Of a DNA stretch of 64,000 nucleotides, positions 55,664 to 64,000 are shown one piece after another; the first letter of the stretch is position 1, and each line of letters starts with the position of its first letter. Location: the NCBI RefSeq assembly GCF_014651635.1, contig NZ_BMXG01000006.1, forward strand, positions 124,001 through 188,000. Reading direction: 5' to 3'. The stretch is from Cerasicoccus arenae. Lineage in GTDB: Bacteria > Verrucomicrobiota > Verrucomicrobiia > Opitutales > Cerasicoccaceae. The translations under genes and the position numbers were made by a program. The notes under the pieces are model-generated. The model did not search any database and was not told where the DNA came from. It was given only the letters and a program-made list of their open reading frames with translations.

Positions 55664-55834
55664 TTAGTTAGAAATATTTGTGAGGACGGTAGTGATGTAA
55701 TTGGAACGGTTGCGATTCTCGTTCTCTGCTAATACATCAATACGGTTCACTAGGTCCTGTGGGAGGCTGATCGAGATTTGGGTTTTTCCTTTTGCTCGAA
55801 TGGTCTTCTTTTCGGATTTTTTTCGCTTATTCAT
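55664..55834 (-). CDS. Small ribbon-helix-helix (CopG/Arc-like) protein
   Basis: A 56-residue DNA-binding protein. A Lys/Arg-rich N-terminus (MNKRKKSEKK) leads into the RHH core: a beta strand (KTQISISLP), helix 1 (QDLVNRIDVLAENE), a turn and helix 2 (RNRSNYITTVLTN). Such proteins dimerise and repress by inserting the strand in the major groove; many are antitoxins or plasmid copy regulators. No toxin gene is next to it: downstream are hairpins and ftsK, upstream a PAS-like protein in the opposite direction. A good promoter precedes it. Its target is unknown. Confidence 0.85.
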   Translation of the reverse strand: MNKRKKSEKKTIRAKGKTQISISLPQDLVNRIDVLAENENRNRSNYITTVLTNISN

Positions 55835-56424: not shown

Positions 56425-59400
56425 TTAATGACGAACGAAGGATCGAATCTCATTTAGGACATTTTTTGCCTCTGTGGAATTATAGTCATTGATGCAGTCT
56501 TGAAGTTTAAGAAAGCTTTTTGACGCATCTGGGTTCTGTAGGATTAGTAACGATGGGGTTAATTGATGGAGCAGTGAACTGATCTCTTCTTGATTAATTT
56601 CACCTAGTTTTAATTCTATTCTGTCACAAAAGTCGTTGACTGTTGCCCAGAGCTCCTCGGTTAATTCCTGTAATTTGGCTGAGTCGTTGCCGGCCATGTA
56701 TTTAAGGGCATTCCATTCTGAATTACTCTCCTTTTTCTTGGTTGGCTCCAGCGATTTAGAGTGAATTGCTGACATTAGTTGCAGCGGGCTAAAGGGCTTG
56801 GGAACAAACTCGTTGACGCCTGCTTCCATGATGCTGCCTCGATGCTCATCTTCGACGTGTGCGCTCATCGCAATAATAGGCACGGTTTTGCCGTTGGGTA
56901 GTTGGCGAATTGCTCTCGCTAATTCGATACCGCTTATGCCTGGGAGATTGATGTCGAGGAGAACGAAGTCCCATGATTCATTATTCCATTGTGCGAGGGC
57001 TGCTTCGCCGGAAGAAACTGTCGTTGCGATGACCCCCATTTTTTCAAGTATGCCCTGAATGACGATTTGGTTGTAGTGCTCATCTTCGACAACTAAGACA
57101 TGGGCGTTGGTTAATGATTGTTCGAAATCGGCCTCAACCGGTTCATCGGTTGGAATGGATTCTGGGTCCAACTTTATTGGAATCTCGACAGAAAAGCAGG
57201 TTCCTTCTGGGCCAGTGGATAGCAGATCAAGTTTTCCATTCAGCAGTTTGGTCAAGCGGTCGGCAATGTTTAGGCCAAGTCCGATTCCTTTGTTTACGTT
57301 GCTGGTGTTTGAAGCTTGGTGAAATTGGTCGAAAATTTTCTGGCGATCATCATCCGGAATTCCGCGACCAGTGTCTTGCACGAGAAAGGTGAGGGTAAGG
57401 GCATCATCTGAATCGTTCTGAGAATATTGTGCAGAGACGGCAACCTCTCCCGTGTCGGTGAACTTTATCGCATTGGTGGTCAGATTAAAAAGGATTTGTT
57501 TAAGCTTACCCGCATCGCCGCACAGGCTTGGGCAGGTAGGCTTGGGGCGCTCAATTCGGAGTGTGAGGCCTTTTTCTTGGGCAAGCCGTCGATGGAGTGA
57601 CTCCAGTTCATCGAGTAATACATCCAGTTTGAAGGTTACTACGACCATTCGTAGATGGCCGTTTTCGATCGCAGCGAAATCGAGCATGCCGTCTAGAAGT
57701 ATCTTCAATTGCTCGGCAGTAGAAAGCAGGTGGCCCAGGCGTTTGTCTCCGGCGTAGGCTTGCTCTTCCATCATGAGGTGTGCCAGTCCGACGATGCCAT
57801 TCATCGGATTGCGTATTTCGTGGCTGACTTGCGCAAGAAAGCGGTTTTTGGAGGTGTTTGCCAGTGCCAGTTTGACGTTCGTTTTCTCGAGTTCAATCGT
57901 GCGGGTTCGCACGGCATTTTCCAGAGCTAGATTTGCCATCCTAAGCCGTTGGGTTCTCCAATGAATGAACGCGTAGATGGCTCCCGAGCCTGCGATGATA
58001 AAGGCGATGTATGCGCCGATGGTGCGGTACCAGGGAGGGAGAACCGTAAACTGATATCTGGAAATCGGGCTGTATGGACGACCCTCAATGATGGCTTGGA
58101 CCTCAAAGACATAAATGCCTTCCTGTAAGTTGGTATATTCCTTGAGGATTGCTGGGTAGGGGTCGCTCCAGTTTTCGCCTAATCCACGAAGCCGGGTTCT
58201 GAATTTAACGGACTCATCGCCATAGTATGGAAGGGCAAACTCAAAGCTGCATTCTTTGACTGGAAAGCTCACGTCATGGTTGGCGCTTTGCTTGGCTGGC
58301 CCATTGCCATTGGAAAACATGGTGGAAGAAATAATTGGCGCGCTGAGTGGCTTGGGCTTTTGCTCTAAGAGTTGGTCTCGGACAATGCCTCCATTGCCGC
58401 CGAACCATGCGATTTGTTTCTCATCCTCAATGAGTAGGCCATGAATCGACCCCAGCACATTGAGGCCCAGTGATGGAATTCGCTGATATTGCGGTTCGTC
58501 CTCGTTTGCAGGCCAAGTGATTTTAACCAATTCCCTGCGGACAACTCCAACCGATTGCAGTGTGAGCCAGTACGCATCGTCAGTGGAGAAGAAATTAATG
58601 GAGTATGGGTCCAGTCCTAATTCGGCGGGGGTGTTTCTTATCCGCTTCCATTGTCCATTGCGTGGATTGCGCTGGAAGCATCCATCGTTTGTGATGGCAA
58701 TGATACCGCCGCCTGCGAAACCGCTGGTGTAGGCCCACATAAAAGGGGCTCCGGTTTCGGGGTTCAGAATAGTATCGTAGTGTGGCTCATATGCATTGTC
58801 GAAGAGTGCATCTCGTTTAACGTACAGTAGGCCGGTATCGACTGAACCAAGATAAATACCTCCATCATTATCGAAGGCCATCGTCCACATGATACCAGGA
58901 AAGCTATTCTTTCGCATAACCTCCAAAATACCCTGATTCCATTTTGCGATTAGAATTTCTTTGAAACTGGACAGGTAAATGACTTCCGAAGTCGGATCAC
59001 TTTGTGCGTATACAATGTCCTGCGTCGTCTCCAATATGGTGCGGGTACCTTCGGGGTCGGCAGCGATTACGCCGTTTTGATAGCAAAAAAGTGGGCCTTG
59101 GCTATGGTGGAGGCCATGCCAGATGTTTTGGCTGTTTTCTCCAATTTTCACCCATTCATAGTTATTGAATGTGGTATTTTGGCTTAAGCGGTAGACTCCC
59201 ATGATCGTGCCGCAATATAGCTCGTCGTCCCATTTAACAAAGCTGTAAACGATGTCGGGGATTTCGTCATGGGCGGTGCTGAACATCGTCCACGAATTTT
59301 CCATGTTAATGCAGCTAATGCCATTTTCGTGACATGCCCATAAATTGCCGTCACGGTCTTGGAACAGGCTGAACACGGTATCGCTCAGTAGGCCTTGCTG

Positions 59401-60291
59401 TTTGCCAATTTGGCCTGCGAGGCGGCCATCTGGATGCATTAACAATATGCCGTGGGTATGGGTGCCCACTGCAATGTCCCCATTGTTCAGTTGGACAATC
59501 TGATAGGCAATCGAGTCGGTTAGGTAGGAATCCAGCTCAGTTGGGAAATTCGTCCACACGTCGGATTCAAATGAATAGAATCCGCTTCGAAATGTGCCAT
59601 AAAGCCTTGGCTGACTGGATTTAGAAATAAAATTAATCGCGTCACCATTGATCGCTTCGTTGCTGATCAATGGAATATATTCTCCACCAACTTCTTCTAG
59701 GACGCCAGCTCCGCGTTGGCTGACTAATACGCTGTCTTGTGCTTGGTAGAGCGTCAGTCGCCGAGGTGTTGTTAGGTGCTCTACCTCGATTTTTACCCCA
59801 TCCCAGCGGATCAGGTGCTGCTCGGCTACGAAGTAAATGACATCGTTGATTTTACTTATTTGCCAGATGTCTCCGGGCATCAGGGAGTTGTCAGGGAGCT
59901 GATCGATGAGAGAGTGATATTTGACGACCTTGCTTCCGCTTACTTCAAAAAAGCCAAATTCATTGGTGCCCGCGGCCCAAATGACACCATCATCGGTGAG
60001 GATTGACTGGAATGTCGCGCCAATTGGGTAGACTGTCCAGTGGGCCCCGTCAAATTGGAGCAGCCCCCGGTGGTTGGCAAAGTACATTTGCCCGTAAGAA
60101 TCTTGTGCAGCCAGCCAGTTTCTTCCGTCAGCATCATAATCCTCTGGCCCGTAGGTCTTTAGCGGAGGGGTCCCGATCATTTCAGCGAGACCTGTGCCCA
60201 GCATCAAGAAATATAACCCCGCAATAAATAGGGATAACCTTACTTTGTTGAGGGATGGTCCTCTGCTATGATGAATCAGTAATCGCACCAC
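56425..60291 (-). CDS. Hybrid sensor histidine kinase with propeller sensor, receiver and Hpt-like tail
   Basis: A 1288-residue membrane sensor. A signal/anchor segment (about 18-36) is followed by a large periplasmic two-component-regulator propeller (about 40-640; repeats such as QGLLSDTVFSLFQDRDGNLWACHENGI) and a Y_Y_Y-like domain (about 670-755). A transmembrane segment (about 765-785) follows. The kinase has phospho-His in QVSHEIRNPMNG (about 825) and the ATP site NAIKF, DTGRGIPDD, GIGLGLNIAD. The receiver Asp lies in FVLLDINLPG (about 1112). The tail (about 1195-1288) resembles an Hpt domain but reads LHQLTPSL instead of HxxKG. No DNA-binding output domain is attached, unlike Bacteroides HTCS. 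Start is GTG at 60291. It is divergent from the small peptide and YcaO genes. Confidence 0.9.
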   Translation of the reverse strand: MVRLLIHHSRGPSLNKVRLSLFIAGLYFLMLGTGLAEMIGTPPLKTYGPEDYDADGRNWLAAQDSYGQMYFANHRGLLQFDGAHWTVYPIGATFQSILTDDGVIWAAGTNEFGFFEVSGSKVVKYHSLIDQLPDNSLMPGDIWQISKINDVIYFVAEQHLIRWDGVKIEVEHLTTPRRLTLYQAQDSVLVSQRGAGVLEEVGGEYIPLISNEAINGDAINFISKSSQPRLYGTFRSGFYSFESDVWTNFPTELDSYLTDSIAYQIVQLNNGDIAVGTHTHGILLMHPDGRLAGQIGKQQGLLSDTVFSLFQDRDGNLWACHENGISCINMENSWTMFSTAHDEIPDIVYSFVKWDDELYCGTIMGVYRLSQNTTFNNYEWVKIGENSQNIWHGLHHSQGPLFCYQNGVIAADPEGTRTILETTQDIVYAQSDPTSEVIYLSSFKEILIAKWNQGILEVMRKNSFPGIMWTMAFDNDGGIYLGSVDTGLLYVKRDALFDNAYEPHYDTILNPETGAPFMWAYTSGFAGGGIIAITNDGCFQRNPRNGQWKRIRNTPAELGLDPYSINFFSTDDAYWLTLQSVGVVRRELVKITWPANEDEPQYQRIPSLGLNVLGSIHGLLIEDEKQIAWFGGNGGIVRDQLLEQKPKPLSAPIISSTMFSNGNGPAKQSANHDVSFPVKECSFEFALPYYGDESVKFRTRLRGLGENWSDPYPAILKEYTNLQEGIYVFEVQAIIEGRPYSPISRYQFTVLPPWYRTIGAYIAFIIAGSGAIYAFIHWRTQRLRMANLALENAVRTRTIELEKTNVKLALANTSKNRFLAQVSHEIRNPMNGIVGLAHLMMEEQAYAGDKRLGHLLSTAEQLKILLDGMLDFAAIENGHLRMVVVTFKLDVLLDELESLHRRLAQEKGLTLRIERPKPTCPSLCGDAGKLKQILFNLTTNAIKFTDTGEVAVSAQYSQNDSDDALTLTFLVQDTGRGIPDDDRQKIFDQFHQASNTSNVNKGIGLGLNIADRLTKLLNGKLDLLSTGPEGTCFSVEIPIKLDPESIPTDEPVEADFEQSLTNAHVLVVEDEHYNQIVIQGILEKMGVIATTVSSGEAALAQWNNESWDFVLLDINLPGISGIELARAIRQLPNGKTVPIIAMSAHVEDEHRGSIMEAGVNEFVPKPFSPLQLMSAIHSKSLEPTKKKESNSEWNALKYMAGNDSAKLQELTEELWATVNDFCDRIELKLGEINQEEISSLLHQLTPSLLILQNPDASKSFLKLQDCINDYNSTEAKNVLNEIRSFVRH
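60245..60272 (+). promoter_or_regulatory. Candidate promoter for the small peptide/YcaO unit
   Basis: TTGTTG (60245-60250), 16-bp spacer, TATGAT (60267-60272). Both hexamers are near sigma70 consensus. It lies inside the N-terminal coding part of the divergent kinase gene. A start near 60279 would leave a leader of about 55 nt before the 39-codon frame. Not verified. Confidence 0.35.
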
Positions 60292-60333
60292 TAGATTATA
60301 TAAACAGATAATCCATAAACAAGGTAGATATAA

Positions 60334-60453
60334 ATGAAAAAGTTATTCCGCACAGTATTATTCACAGTGAAATACAATTGTGGCGTTCGGTCAAAACCAA
60401 GCATGCCCACATTGGAAACAAAAGCCCCGCCTACTTATCCAACGGAAGTATAA
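60334..60453 (+). CDS. Candidate 39-residue peptide, possible RiPP precursor
   Basis: A short open frame with AAGG (60321-60324) nine bases before its ATG. The peptide starts MKKLFRTVLFTVKYNCG and ends TKAPPTYPTEV. It has one Cys (C16), two Ser (20, 23) and six Thr (7, 11, 26, 29, 34, 37). The C-terminal half is rich in Pro, Thr and Ser; the N-terminal half is basic and hydrophobic. It lies directly upstream of a YcaO gene on the same strand, with a strong hairpin between them. YcaO enzymes modify backbone amides next to Cys, Ser or Thr, so this could be the substrate. Short frames occur by chance, no homologue is known to me, and it may be non-coding. Confidence 0.45.
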   Translation: MKKLFRTVLFTVKYNCGVRSKPSMPTLETKAPPTYPTEV

Positions 60454-60480
60454 CTGATTCAACTACCATTACTGCTAGCG

Positions 60481-60508
60481 GCGCCGCTGTCCAACCGGGC
60501 AGCGGCGC
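60481..60508 (+). terminator. 12-bp hairpin between the peptide frame and the YcaO gene
   Basis: GCGCCGCTGTCC (60481-60492) pairs over 12 bp with GGGCAGCGGCGC (60497-60508), one G-U pair, loop AACC. It is followed by TTGCTCTATCTC, a weakly T-rich tail. It lies 27 bp past the peptide stop and 18 bp before the YcaO ATG. Such partial terminators in RiPP operons yield excess precursor mRNA; that use here is inferred. Confidence 0.65.
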
Positions 60509-60526
60509 TTGCTCTATCTCACGCAC

Positions 60527-61432
60527 ATGAATTTAGCTCCCATTAAATTTCGAGACATCTTGGTGGCGGATGGCGGCCCGATCCGGACGGTCGACATTGG
60601 GAGTGAAATGTTTCTGGGCCGAGAGCATTACAGTGCTCACGCCTACCTGCGCGACGATCTTCGAACCCGTCGCACGATGCACACGATACCGGATATGCCC
60701 GATGGCGTCGGTTCGGGCAAGGATCCTTCTACCGCTCATTTTCGTGCGGTGTCAGAAGCTTTAGAGAGGTGGGCCTTTCGGCACTGTTCCTTGGATGATC
60801 GCTCGCATTTTGAATACGGTTTTGACTATGATCCGACTACAAATGGCATGGCGGCCTATCCAGGCTTGTTTGACAGCGCTGCACGAATGTCCGCGCGTCG
60901 CGAAGCCATTGAGCGCCATTGCCTGATTCTTTGGTGGGAGGGCTTTCTAGGGATCACCAGCATTGCTGACCCTTTTGAGGGCGTTCGCGCTGTTCGCATT
61001 GATAATCCATTTTCCGACGATGTCGTTGTCCTGCTTTGGCAGTTTGTCGACGAGCGATTTTACACTTATGGATTCGGCTTGGGGGCCTCGGTTGACAAGG
61101 CCTGTTGGCGTGCAGGTATTGAGCTTAGCCGCACTGCAGGCATCGTAAAAACCTACTACGAATTCAATAATTGCCCTGATCGGCGGACAATTGAGGAGCT
61201 TGATCACCCTTTTGAGCGGAGAATCCTATATTTCAGCCGACCAGAAGGCTTCTTGGATGTCATTAAAAAAATGGAATCCAGCCCCCAGCATGAGCCACCG
61301 CAAACTCCTTTGGTGATCGTTGACCGCAAGCTTGTTGGCCCTTGGAGCAAGTATGCGACGGTTTGGAGAGTGGTTATTGAACAGCCAAGTCGTGAATTTG
61401 CAGGTAAAAACGCGGATTATTTCTTCTGGTGA
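60527..61432 (+). CDS. YcaO-family ATP-dependent enzyme (possible azoline/thioamide-type peptide modifier)
   Basis: A 301-residue protein, short for the family (often 400 or more). The ATP/Mg-binding clusters are recognisable: GVGSGKDPSTAHFRAVSEAL followed by ERWAFRHC; then ARREAIERHCLILWWEGF; then FGLGASVDKACWRAGIELSR. These match the ExxxER-type signatures of YcaO. YcaO enzymes phosphorylate backbone amides to form azolines, thioamides or amidines, or act on ribosomal protein S12. The C-terminus (NADYFFW) lacks the PxPxP end of cyclodehydratases. No E1-like, RRE or TfuA partner gene is visible. ATG 60527 was chosen; the upstream TTG at 60509 lies at the hairpin. It ends 2 bp before the convergent TonB receptor gene. 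Confidence 0.82.
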   Translation: MNLAPIKFRDILVADGGPIRTVDIGSEMFLGREHYSAHAYLRDDLRTRRTMHTIPDMPDGVGSGKDPSTAHFRAVSEALERWAFRHCSLDDRSHFEYGFDYDPTTNGMAAYPGLFDSAARMSARREAIERHCLILWWEGFLGITSIADPFEGVRAVRIDNPFSDDVVVLLWQFVDERFYTYGFGLGASVDKACWRAGIELSRTAGIVKTYYEFNNCPDRRTIEELDHPFERRILYFSRPEGFLDVIKKMESSPQHEPPQTPLVIVDRKLVGPWSKYATVWRVVIEQPSREFAGKNADYFFW

Positions 61433-61434
61433 AA

Positions 61435-64000
61435 CTAGAATTTTTTGCTGATTGAGCCATAAACAAAGCGGTTCTCAATCGAATACAACGAGGTGTCATA
61501 CCCGTCGGCAAAGGCACCCGCAGCAAAAGGTGGCTCGGTGTTAAAGACATTGTCGACCCCGACCATGATTTTCGTGCCGTTCAGCAACTGATATTGCGTG
61601 TTTTCGAATTCATATCCGGCAACGAGATTCACTTTGGTATAGCTCTCGACGGTTCGGTTCATGCCGCCCAAGGTGAAGCTGGGATCATCTTCGTATGAGC
61701 CGATGTATTGCACAGTTGCTCCGATCATGGCCTGATGTACGAACAGATTGGCGCTCGCCAATCCTTTCCACCGCGGCACAGCGCCGGGGCTCAAATTATT
61801 TGAGCGTTTATCGACGTAGCGCCCGGCAAATGAGACATCGCCTGTGCCTGGCACATCCGCCTCAAAGCTGATCACTTGATTGACGCCCATTGAAAGACGC
61901 ATGCGAATGTCTTCCGTAAGTTTACGATCATAGCTTGCTTCATAATCCATACCTTGAGTTGTCAGGCTGGAAACATTAAAGAAGCGTGAAGTGACAAAAA
62001 CGACGGGTCCATTGGGCCCAGCACGGATGACATCAGCGGGGTTGTTTTGATCGAGGGTGTATTGCGCGCCATTGGCGATAGCGTCATCGACTCTAATATA
62101 GTAATAGCTGGCGCGCAGGGTCAGGCCTTCGGCGAAATCAGGTTCCCAAATGGCGCTGGCGGAGAAGTTGTTCGATGTTTCAGGGTCGAGCGAAGGATTA
62201 CCGCGCACGAGGGTTGGAATCGGTGTACCGGGCGGGGTGGCTCCTGTTGAGTCGACTAGAATTGGGTAATCATAGATTTCGCCCGCATAAGATTCATACA
62301 GGGTAGGGGCGCGGAATCCTGTGCTGTAAGCGGCTCGCAGTGTGACTGACTCGACAGGCTTCAGGCTGATTGCGGCCTTCCAAGAAAGATTTCGATATCC
62401 ATTGGGGGCCGAGATTCCGGTAATCGGATCATTGCCTGTGTCGGAAAAATTTTCAAAGCGTAGGCCGAGACTGAGGTCAAGTCGGTTGACGGCGGTAATT
62501 GATTGCTTGGGGGAAATCAGCGGAATATTGATTTCACTAAAGAGTGCAGCTACGTTGCGTTGCCCGCTGTAGTTTTGGGTAAAGCCACCTCCGCCTAGGT
62601 TTTGGCCACTGGCCCAGAGGGAGTCGGGTGTGGCGTCAATGGATTCATAGCGATACTCAAGCCCGAATGCACCTTCCAGGTCGCCCGCAGGCAGCTTAAC
62701 CAGATCGCCGGACACTTTAGCGTCGTAGGAAAACATGTTTTCGTAGAACTGGTCTTTCGCGTCAACAGAAGCGGCATTTAAGGCCACATAGTTGTTGAAT
62801 GGGACGCCGGCATTATTACCTGCAACCGCGCGTGCGAAGGGGTTGAATAAGCCTGAATTGATGTGTGGAATGAGTAGTCGGGCATCCGCAATTCCGGATA
62901 CTTCATTGGTCAGTTCCGTCTGGGTATAGAGCACAGCCGTATCCCATTCCCAGCGATCATCGACTAAGCCTCGTGCCCCCCCGACCAGTCGAAACGCATT
63001 GCGTTCAAAGCGCGTGTTGAGTGTGCCGAGCTCAAAATTGCGATAAGTGACTGAAAATAAGTCCGCTGCCGGAACAGGATTATGCGGGCTATTTTGTGCG
63101 GCGGTAAAAATTGGCGTTCCTGGATAGGCACCCCATGGGGCCGAGGCCAAGCCATTGGCTTGGTTTTGATAGGAAAACAGCGCCTCGCCATACAGCGTTA
63201 CTTGGTCGGTCAAGTTATGCTCGATTGCGGCAAAAATGCTGGCGATGCGCAGGGCGGGAATGTCTGGTGCTTGATTGTTATAATTTAATGCATCGGTGTT
63301 TTGATTGTAGGGAACATAGTCGGCTCCAGTCGTGGGGAAGGGGATTCCGGGGGCCAGGACGCCGTTTACGTTGGAGCCGCCAAACAAGAAATTTGCCCGC
63401 CCGGGAAAAGTGGAACTTCCACGGTTGGTACCGCCGAGGGGGATGAAGTTCGTGGTGGCGGATAAATCCCGATCACGCGCCCAAACAACCTGCTGATCAA
63501 AGTAACTGCCCAATAGTGTTAAGTGCGTATCTTCGTCCAGATTGAACCCGGCGATCATGGAGTATTGCTGTAATTGACCACCTCCGTCTGTTGTGTTCCC
63601 GTAAAGCCCATCCAGTCGGACGCCTTGAAAGCGATTATCCAGACCGATATTCACGACGCCGCCAATCGCGTCTGAGCCATAGGTTGTGCTCGCGGTTTCC
63701 TGCAGGATGTCAATCTCGCGTATGGCTGCTTGGGGAATGAGGTTCAGATTGGCGAAACCACCAGGGTCCAAACCCAGAGCGCTATTGCCGCCAGCACGTC
63801 GTCCGTTGATGAGATTCAATGTGCGCAGCGTGCCCAAGGCATGTATGTTGGGTGAGGATGCGCCCGTGCCACCATTGCTGTCATTCTCAGTGTTCATCGC
63901 ACCGTAAAACGAGGGTAACATGCGGAGGCTTTCAATGGGCATTTGATTGCCCATGAGGATCAGATCCTCATATTTTAGCGTTGTAAACGTTTCATTCGGA
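61435..64000 (-). CDS. TonB-dependent receptor (partial, 5' end beyond the window)
   Basis: At least 850 residues of an outer-membrane TonB-dependent transporter; the frame is still open at base 64000, so the signal peptide and TonB box are missing. The plug domain is present (LRTLNLINGRRAGGNSALGL, IDILQETASTTYGSDAIGGV). The beta-barrel follows with family-typical strands such as LRAAYSTGFRAPTLYESY. The C-terminus ends in FVYGSISKKF, with the terminal Phe needed for BAM insertion. The ligand is unknown. It converges on the YcaO gene with a 2-bp gap. Import of a peptide or metal complex made by the neighbouring genes is possible but not shown. Confidence 0.9.
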   Translation of the reverse strand, partial: PNETFTTLKYEDLILMGNQMPIESLRMLPSFYGAMNTENDSNGGTGASSPNIHALGTLRTLNLINGRRAGGNSALGLDPGGFANLNLIPQAAIREIDILQETASTTYGSDAIGGVVNIGLDNRFQGVRLDGLYGNTTDGGGQLQQYSMIAGFNLDEDTHLTLLGSYFDQQVVWARDRDLSATTNFIPLGGTNRGSSTFPGRANFLFGGSNVNGVLAPGIPFPTTGADYVPYNQNTDALNYNNQAPDIPALRIASIFAAIEHNLTDQVTLYGEALFSYQNQANGLASAPWGAYPGTPIFTAAQNSPHNPVPAADLFSVTYRNFELGTLNTRFERNAFRLVGGARGLVDDRWEWDTAVLYTQTELTNEVSGIADARLLIPHINSGLFNPFARAVAGNNAGVPFNNYVALNAASVDAKDQFYENMFSYDAKVSGDLVKLPAGDLEGAFGLEYRYESIDATPDSLWASGQNLGGGGFTQNYSGQRNVAALFSEINIPLISPKQSITAVNRLDLSLGLRFENFSDTGNDPITGISAPNGYRNLSWKAAISLKPVESVTLRAAYSTGFRAPTLYESYAGEIYDYPILVDSTGATPPGTPIPTLVRGNPSLDPETSNNFSASAIWEPDFAEGLTLRASYYYIRVDDAIANGAQYTLDQNNPADVIRAGPNGPVVFVTSRFFNVSSLTTQGMDYEASYDRKLTEDIRMRLSMGVNQVISFEADVPGTGDVSFAGRYVDKRSNNLSPGAVPRWKGLASANLFVHQAMIGATVQYIGSYEDDPSFTLGGMNRTVESYTKVNLVAGYEFENTQYQLLNGTKIMVGVDNVFNTEPPFAAGAFADGYDTSLYSIENRFVYGSISKKF

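Follow-up and report, generated by a model that had tools for sequence, protein, structure and literature searches.

The YcaO fold is common to the microcin B17 synthetase McbD and the cyanobactin heterocyclases LynD and TruD, and the enzyme described here shares it with both. Linear azol(in)e peptides made by YcaO enzymes carry Cys, Ser or Thr in a C-terminal core, repeats of which occur, and the cassette that we describe resembles them in these respects. It differs from the azol(in)e systems in that its YcaO is about 300 aa long and ends in Phe-Phe-Trp (FFW), where azol(in)e-type YcaO enzymes presumably end in a PxPxP tail, in that no partner or dehydrogenase family recurs among ORFs of at least 90 aa in 24 loci, and in having a hydrophobic leader and a kinase. 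Stand-alone amidine-forming YcaO enzymes, ItfB and that of BGC8 from Bacteroidales, act near the precursor C terminus (PMC10352776), and the cassette YcaO would likewise act there. BGC8 combines a GG-leader with a PCAT exporter, whereas the cassette has a signal-peptide-like leader, no recurring exporter and varied core ends.

RiPPs with Sec leaders are described as rare among bacterial RiPPs, with experimental proof in the natural host for bufferins only (PMC12452194). Bufferins and other MNIO RiPPs share with the cassette a signal-peptide-type leader and a Cys core. The difference lies in the enzyme: bufferins are made by an MNIO enzyme, whereas the cassette has a YcaO and an attached kinase.

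On the receiving side, the Bacteroides HTCS proteins BT4663, BT3049 and BT4673 combine a double propeller with Y_Y_Y, HisKA, HATPase and receiver domains in one protein, as does the kinase at our locus. HTCS sensors with the double-propeller fold are known for glycan sensing, and HTCS proteins presumably carry an AraC-type DNA-binding domain in the same protein; in the cassette, by contrast, the regulator is a separate REC-LuxR protein and the kinase is linked to a RiPP pair. In agr and nisin NisRK, too, the gene of a modified peptide is linked with a sensor kinase and a response regulator; these systems are Gram-positive and rely on other enzymes and dedicated exporters, whereas the cassette belongs to a Gram-negative group and carries a YcaO. 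No published description of a peptide-YcaO-kinase system was found in the open-access literature, most subscription journals lying outside the search, and what looks to be undescribed is a class of YcaO RiPPs that has a leader type of its own and is partnered by a kinase. The same peptide-YcaO-sensor layout is present in dozens of Opitutae bacteria.

A compact YcaO enzyme of Opitutae

The window, that is, the whole 64,000-nucleotide stretch of DNA that was analysed, contains the following features.

56425..60291, minus strand: hybrid sensor histidine kinase, divergent, 1288 aa from the longest start
60282..60333, no strand assigned: divergent promoter region, 42 bp from the longest kinase start to the precursor start
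60334..60453, plus strand: precursor peptide gene, 39 aa, MKKLFRTVLFTVKYNCGVRSKPSMPTLETKAPPTYPTEV
about 60477..60513, plus strand: RNA hairpin between precursor and YcaO, with a 12-bp GC-rich inner stem
60527..61432, plus strand: compact stand-alone YcaO, 301 aa, ATG at 60527, C-terminal Phe-Phe-Trp

The original prediction rested on the 39-codon ORF, a strong hairpin and the 301-aa YcaO, all of which were confirmed. A TTG at 60509 was rejected as the YcaO start because the alignment with homologues begins at (M/V)NLAP or the corresponding residues. The protein matches Pfam YcaO with an E value of 1.5e-6 and 28.2 bits (cut-off 25.7), and the same family is matched in 75 of 80 members at E≤0.01. 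The window YcaO is divergent, since a first whole-genome Pfam YcaO search of its own genome gave no match at E≤0.001; a later protein scan and further searches recovered it. In the alignment of 80 rows, which leaves out the partial L122, acidic residues are conserved at E77 (80/80), E80 (79/80), E126 (80/80), E129 (78/80) and E199 (79/80); these are candidate Mg-ATP ligands. The C-terminal end is mostly FFW, with W301 present in 69 of the 80 rows, and is missing from a four-member subclade of the first set (G146b, G088b, G156 and G061). Loci L044, L045, L046 and L047 hold a YcaO subclade lacking the FFW end, with the response regulator on the kinase's strand, and in three of these the long YcaO ORF begins about 100 nt upstream of the usual start.

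An AlphaFold2 model of the enzyme (pLDDT 94.0, pTM 0.91) adopts the YcaO fold, and its 14 best structural rows are all YcaO enzymes, with Z scores of 17.1 to 9.3 (next row 6.1). They include the microcin B17 synthetase chain 6gos_D, which we take to be McbD (Z 17.1, rmsd 4.2, 264 residues aligned), the archaeal YcaO 6ci7_B (Z 16.0, rmsd 3.8, 247 aligned) and the heterocyclase 4v1t_A, presumably LynD (Z 15.7, rmsd 4.3, 268 aligned). Foldseek alone returned only 6ci7 at E≤0.001, and sequence searches of the PDB with the single YcaO and with the family profile found no YcaO, the profile giving no chain at E≤1. By fold and by sequence family the window protein belongs to the YcaO superfamily. The SagD-type model TIGR03604 gives the window protein 15.6 bits, below its cut-off of 219.25, and matches 60 of the 80 members, the best at E 8e-8. 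YcaO enzymes of the S12 (RimO-linked) type are, we assume, long and equipped with an extra C-terminal domain; no such domain was found in the 301-aa window protein, the model of which is covered by YcaO-domain matches, and its size and neighbours speak against the S12 clade. TfuA, of which the original prediction had seen no recognisable gene at the locus, was absent from all 9 genomes searched while its positive control matched. For ocin-ThiF the result was also 0 of 9 genomes, with a positive control likewise unmatched.

By protein search, 6 of 10 genomes in the family and 21 of 177 in the order have the YcaO; a profile search of 387 genomes of the phylum found it in 14, which all belong to one order, in our reading Opitutales. 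A single-sequence scan of genome contigs gave no YcaO relatives, and from an alignment query the best 80 of 100 relatives were kept; the contig scan used two patterns, which limit what could be found. These best 80 of 100 are labelled Opitutae, Opitutia, Opitutales or member genera, or else Verrucomicrobia, Verrucomicrobiia or Verrucomicrobiota, apart from L054, which is labelled 'bacterium'.

The precursor peptide family

The locus set comprises 104 loci, or 94 distinct loci after removal of 10 duplicates; a 97-locus set has only 7 duplicates removed. The window had been predicted to hold a RiPP operon, with conservation of the small ORF next to YcaO homologues as the proposed check. A leader profile built from 22 of the first 24 loci matches upstream of YcaO in 88 of the 94 distinct loci at E≤10, the 22 seeds being counted among the 88, and this pairing supports the RiPP reading: the sender pair of precursor and YcaO very probably constitutes a RiPP system. 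Free of seeds, 65 of 68 named loci match at E≤10 and 58 of 68 at E≤1e-3. Among 19,197 small ORFs of the 97 loci, the profile matches 85 upstream of YcaO and 1 elsewhere at E≤0.01, and 91 upstream and 6 elsewhere at E≤10. Six distinct loci escaped the profile: L084 and L122 have at most 10 bp of upstream DNA, L043, L110 and L123 have signal-like ORFs by eye, and in L126 no precursor-like ORF was recognised upstream. Inspected by eye, all 24 first loci show, ahead of the YcaO, a short ORF that begins in a hydrophobic or signal-like manner. The profile replaced an earlier regex test for the leader (76 of 104 loci, 0.023 expected per locus) because the regex missed the window and its congeners.

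The leader is conserved and hydrophobic, with Gly-Phe/Leu followed by Ala-Ala-x-x-Leu-Asp-Pro, and the C-terminal core is variable. In an alignment of 36 precursors the hydrophobic stretch is followed by an invariant Gly, then by an AA..LDP region and a free linker, and the end is of the CxxPC type; NCBIfam and Pfam gave no convincing family for these 36 (best E 0.021 and 0.046, respectively). The core motif [C/S/T]-x(1-3)-Pro-[C/S/T], defined like the leader pattern after some members had been seen, occurs in 58 of 91 precursors, and in its stricter [CT] form in 48. Cys is present in the C-terminal part of 84 of the 91 and preceded by Pro at the last Cys in 51 of these 84; the remaining 7 lack a Cys in the core half. 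Internal core repeats were found in 7 of the 91, with SSAFSELPCQF occurring five times in L127. Core counts were made on untrimmed ORFs; automatic start trimming over-shortened several leaders (e.g. L040, L041, L064 and L127). An order-wide precursor profile (156 genomes, E≤0.01) gave 13 matches, 11 directly upstream of YcaO and 2 marginal ones elsewhere, and since it missed the known precursors of G000, G001, G002, G003 and G005 it says little against precursors without a YcaO.

Tandem precursor genes stand upstream of the YcaO in L062, L063 and L065, and the second lacks Cys in L063 and L065. In L051 a second leader-profile match (E 4.5e-11, 41 aa) lies downstream of the YcaO, at +1005 to +1131 from the YcaO match start; this peptide has the leader and no Cys core.

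The window precursor divides into a leader of approximately residues 1-30 and a C-terminal core, APPTYPTEV, at residues 31-39. The window is from the genus Cerasicoccus (family Cerasicoccaceae in the NCBI taxonomy). In each of three congeneric genomes a 39-codon homologue is present that has no indels, and the window and C. maritimus precursors differ at 16, 11 and 31 sites at codon positions 1, 2 and 3, respectively, over the 39 codons. Given the indel-free homologues and the third-position excess of differences, the frame is a real coding sequence. Within the genus the core ends in [PYW]-P-[TS]-aromatic-P-[TC]-E-V, and window Thr37 aligns with Cys of two congeneric species (PTEV/PCEV), which makes Thr37, and perhaps Thr34, the best candidate sites. 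In the window and its family relatives G003 and G005 the core Cys is replaced by Thr, and such an exchange of Thr and Cys at one core position is as expected if a beta-nucleophile is needed. The original prediction had drawn attention to the single Cys of the peptide; this residue, Cys16, was rejected as the substrate because it is an unconserved leader residue; conservation is seen instead at the C-terminal Pro-Thr. The hydrophobic segment of the window precursor is weak (best 12-residue mean 0.93 against a median of 2.41 for the 91 precursors, of which 71 reach 1.8). Sec export is thus doubtful for the window peptide and its genus; for many other members of the family it is likely.

The 88-nt stretch that holds the hairpin folds at -31.6 kcal/mol (z -3.5), a value equalled by none of 200 dinucleotide shuffles, and the scan found no terminator-type T run at the window hairpin. 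The gap between precursor and YcaO is at most 60 nt in 66 of 88 loci (median 30). Where the gap is at least 60 nt, the minimum-energy fold contains an uninterrupted helix of at least 10 bp in 13 of 22 loci, namely all 6 of the window's family, two G041 loci, L056 and four others, and the idea that the hairpin is confined to the window's family was rejected on these grounds. The hairpin is a recurring, not a general, feature of long-gap loci. It probably lowers expression of the YcaO relative to the precursor, which would fit attenuation.

The divergent kinase, its regulator and the promoter region

The original prediction described a minimal locus and missed half of the system. When ORFs of at least 90 aa from 24 loci were clustered, though not annotated singly, no family besides the YcaO and the kinase/receiver occurred in more than 5 loci, so that no partner family of that size recurs. 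The locus is not isolated, for a kinase/regulator pair belongs to the system. A kinase lies on the opposite strand within 5.5 kb upstream in 83 of the 84 loci with at least 3 kb of upstream DNA (10 of the 94 were set aside as shorter), the exception being L054, and some of these 83 kinases are split ORFs. In total, 2 other ORFs of at least 600 aa across the 94 loci match the kinase domain. Comparison of the loci gives good support to a conserved precursor-YcaO-kinase gene pairing.

The window kinase has Reg_prop, Y_Y_Y (25.1 bits, cut-off 26.6), HisKA, HATPase_c and receiver domains, and none of the 5 families matched in it at E≤0.01 is a DNA-binding one. Its unassigned C-terminal tail is possibly an Hpt domain, which is a guess. 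Transmembrane-like segments at approximately 17-39 and 757-776 enclose the sensor domain, which was modelled as a double beta-propeller (pLDDT 88.9). The best matches of the sensor are HTCS periplasmic domains, with BT4673 first by E-value (TM 0.43) and BT4663 (4a2l) best by TM (0.73); PDB titles of the matched sensors name heparin and heparan sulphate. A full-length REC-LuxR regulator is present in 63 of the 83 kinase loci, in 55 of them convergent beyond the kinase, and was not found within the fetched flank in the other 20. The window's own REC-LuxR regulator lies 162 bp past the window end (L048:8163-8876).

Across 76 loci the kinase sensors are on average 21% identical and the YcaO proteins 43%, as averages taken without a control set. 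YcaO and kinase distances correlate (Spearman 0.63) and agree on the nearest neighbour in 42 of 76 cases, a correlation that can be attributed to shared ancestry. Kinase relatives also occur in genomes G043, G056 and G127, where no YcaO was found, and the kinase family is therefore wider than the peptide-YcaO system; where a kinase relative has no YcaO next to it, the leader profile gave no matches (6 regions). In G056 (L152, G056:C100, 4900-9639) the kinase, the regulator and a TonB-dependent receptor are kept, while the precursor and YcaO between them are missing. Its proteins are 53% (kinase), 90% (regulator) and 73% (TonB receptor) identical to those of G041b, a locus with the same gene order in G041, a genome of the same genus. 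Such an arrangement may be that of a listener-only genome or of a kinase that has another ligand, or it may be ancestral.

In the window the true kinase start may lie further inside the kinase ORF. An ATC-N9-GAT element at 60282-60296, which by eye recurs at a similar place in three congeneric loci, is a candidate operator on its sequence; the pattern was built from the window and two relatives, and the window matches it by construction. Elsewhere a subset of loci carries an operator-like palindrome, CTACCGGAATTCCGGTAG, found with up to 4 mismatches in the 350 bp before the precursor of 18 of 90 loci, where 0.0016 would be expected per locus; 4 of the 94 loci are set aside here for short upstream DNA, and two of the 18 are those in which the palindrome was first noticed. 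Counted from trimmed precursor starts, 12 of the 18 sites lie at -64 to -66, and L077, L091 and L103 join them if longer precursor starts are used. The palindrome has 6 other places in 1.36 Mb. More generally, 21 of 86 loci have an 18-bp palindrome in which 8 or all 9 pairs match (2.2 expected). A genome-wide search allowing up to 3 mismatches gave 8 sites in G022, 4 in G072 and none in G135, against 2 per genome for the letter-reversed control.

A universal TACC-N8-GGTA operator was rejected because no copy of the palindrome was found in 72 of 90 loci, among them the window locus. Copies of the same type also stand upstream of other receiver or kinase genes (L144, L148 and, at +2946, L113), which suggests a signalling regulon. 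Given these copies and the absence from 72 loci, the palindrome may belong to another regulator.

Peptide signal or peptide product

As the best explanation we propose that the locus is a minimal RiPP signalling cassette, a proposal in which we infer the chemistry, the export, the identity of the ligand and the autoregulation, and to which, with all steps taken jointly, we give an even chance. The short precursor would be made in the cytoplasm with its conserved, membrane-targeting, signal-peptide-like leader. The stand-alone YcaO would use ATP to activate a backbone amide of the core, most likely at the Cys or Thr after Pro, and an azoline would result, with a thioamide or an amidine as alternatives; the azoline guess is made because Cys and Thr exchange at the site and because the microcin B17 enzyme is the nearest fold, by about 1 Z unit over the archaeal YcaO. 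Guided by its leader, the modified peptide would cross the inner membrane, probably through Sec and with the leader cut off by signal peptidase. The periplasmic double-propeller domain of the divergent hybrid kinase would then sense the core, and a phosphorelay may lead to the LuxR-type regulator, which would control the precursor operon and other signalling genes in the manner of peptide autoinduction. Of the single accounts, peptide reading by the kinase explains best why the layout is fixed head to head, why the sensor is periplasmic and why sensor identity is low. A broader claim, of a class of YcaO-made pheromones in Gram-negative Opitutae with a two-gene sender, housekeeping export, a private receiver, co-diversification of core and receptor, and listener-only genomes, is tentative, and we rate it a little below evens.

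A serious rival, to which we give appreciable if lower credence, is that the RiPP is an output directed against competitors or serving another external role, and that the kinase and regulator sense an environmental ligand such as a glycan and switch the operon on. The sensor fold is that of the Bacteroides HTCS glycan sensors, and a TonB-dependent receptor family is found close to the YcaO in 5 of 24 loci, in 4 of them downstream. G056, which keeps kinase, regulator and TonB receptor without precursor or YcaO, would mean that the kinase is useful without a peptide of its own, as would the other kinase relatives in YcaO-less genomes; yet G056 can equally be read as a listener that has lost its sender, and no glycan-utilisation, immunity or exporter set is conserved in the 24 loci (ORFs of at least 90 aa). 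We consider it improbable that an exported Cys peptide binds periplasmic metal in the manner of bufferins while the kinase senses metal or envelope stress. Signal-peptide-like leaders and CxxPC-type cores would suit such a role, and it is for MNIO products that RiPP precursors with Sec leaders have otherwise been described (PMC12452194), but the core Cys is replaced by Thr in the window, G003 and G005, and 7 of 91 precursors have no core Cys at all. Least probable, and very unlikely, is that the small ORF is a regulatory leader ORF only and that the YcaO acts on another target such as a ribosomal protein: the attenuator-like hairpin after the ORF in the window and 12 other long-gap loci agrees with this, but the amino-acid sequence is conserved across the order, differences within the genus are in excess at third codon positions, cores are repeated in 7 precursors, precursor genes are in tandem in L062, L063 and L065, and the gap is at most 60 nt in 66 of 88 loci.

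If the signalling reading is true, the cassette would be about the smallest RiPP system imaginable, consisting of one precursor and one enzyme, beside which no partner, exporter or protease family recurs. A further type of ligand would be added for double-propeller hybrid kinases, of which the crystallised example, a heparin sensor, reads glycans, and a group of Verrucomicrobiota would gain a means of communicating by peptide. Since the sequences of cores, leaders and receptors are at hand for dozens of genomes, every step is open to testing in marine species that can be cultured.

Two further neighbours were seen in the window. A TonB-dependent receptor at 61435-63999 on the minus strand is convergent with the YcaO and continues past the window end; as a component of the system the receptor was rejected, being present in 5 of 24 loci only, and in the window it possibly serves peptide uptake or stands there by chance. 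On the far side of the kinase, a 56-aa ORF at 55664-55834 on the minus strand has, by eye, the look of a ribbon-helix-helix DNA-binding protein.
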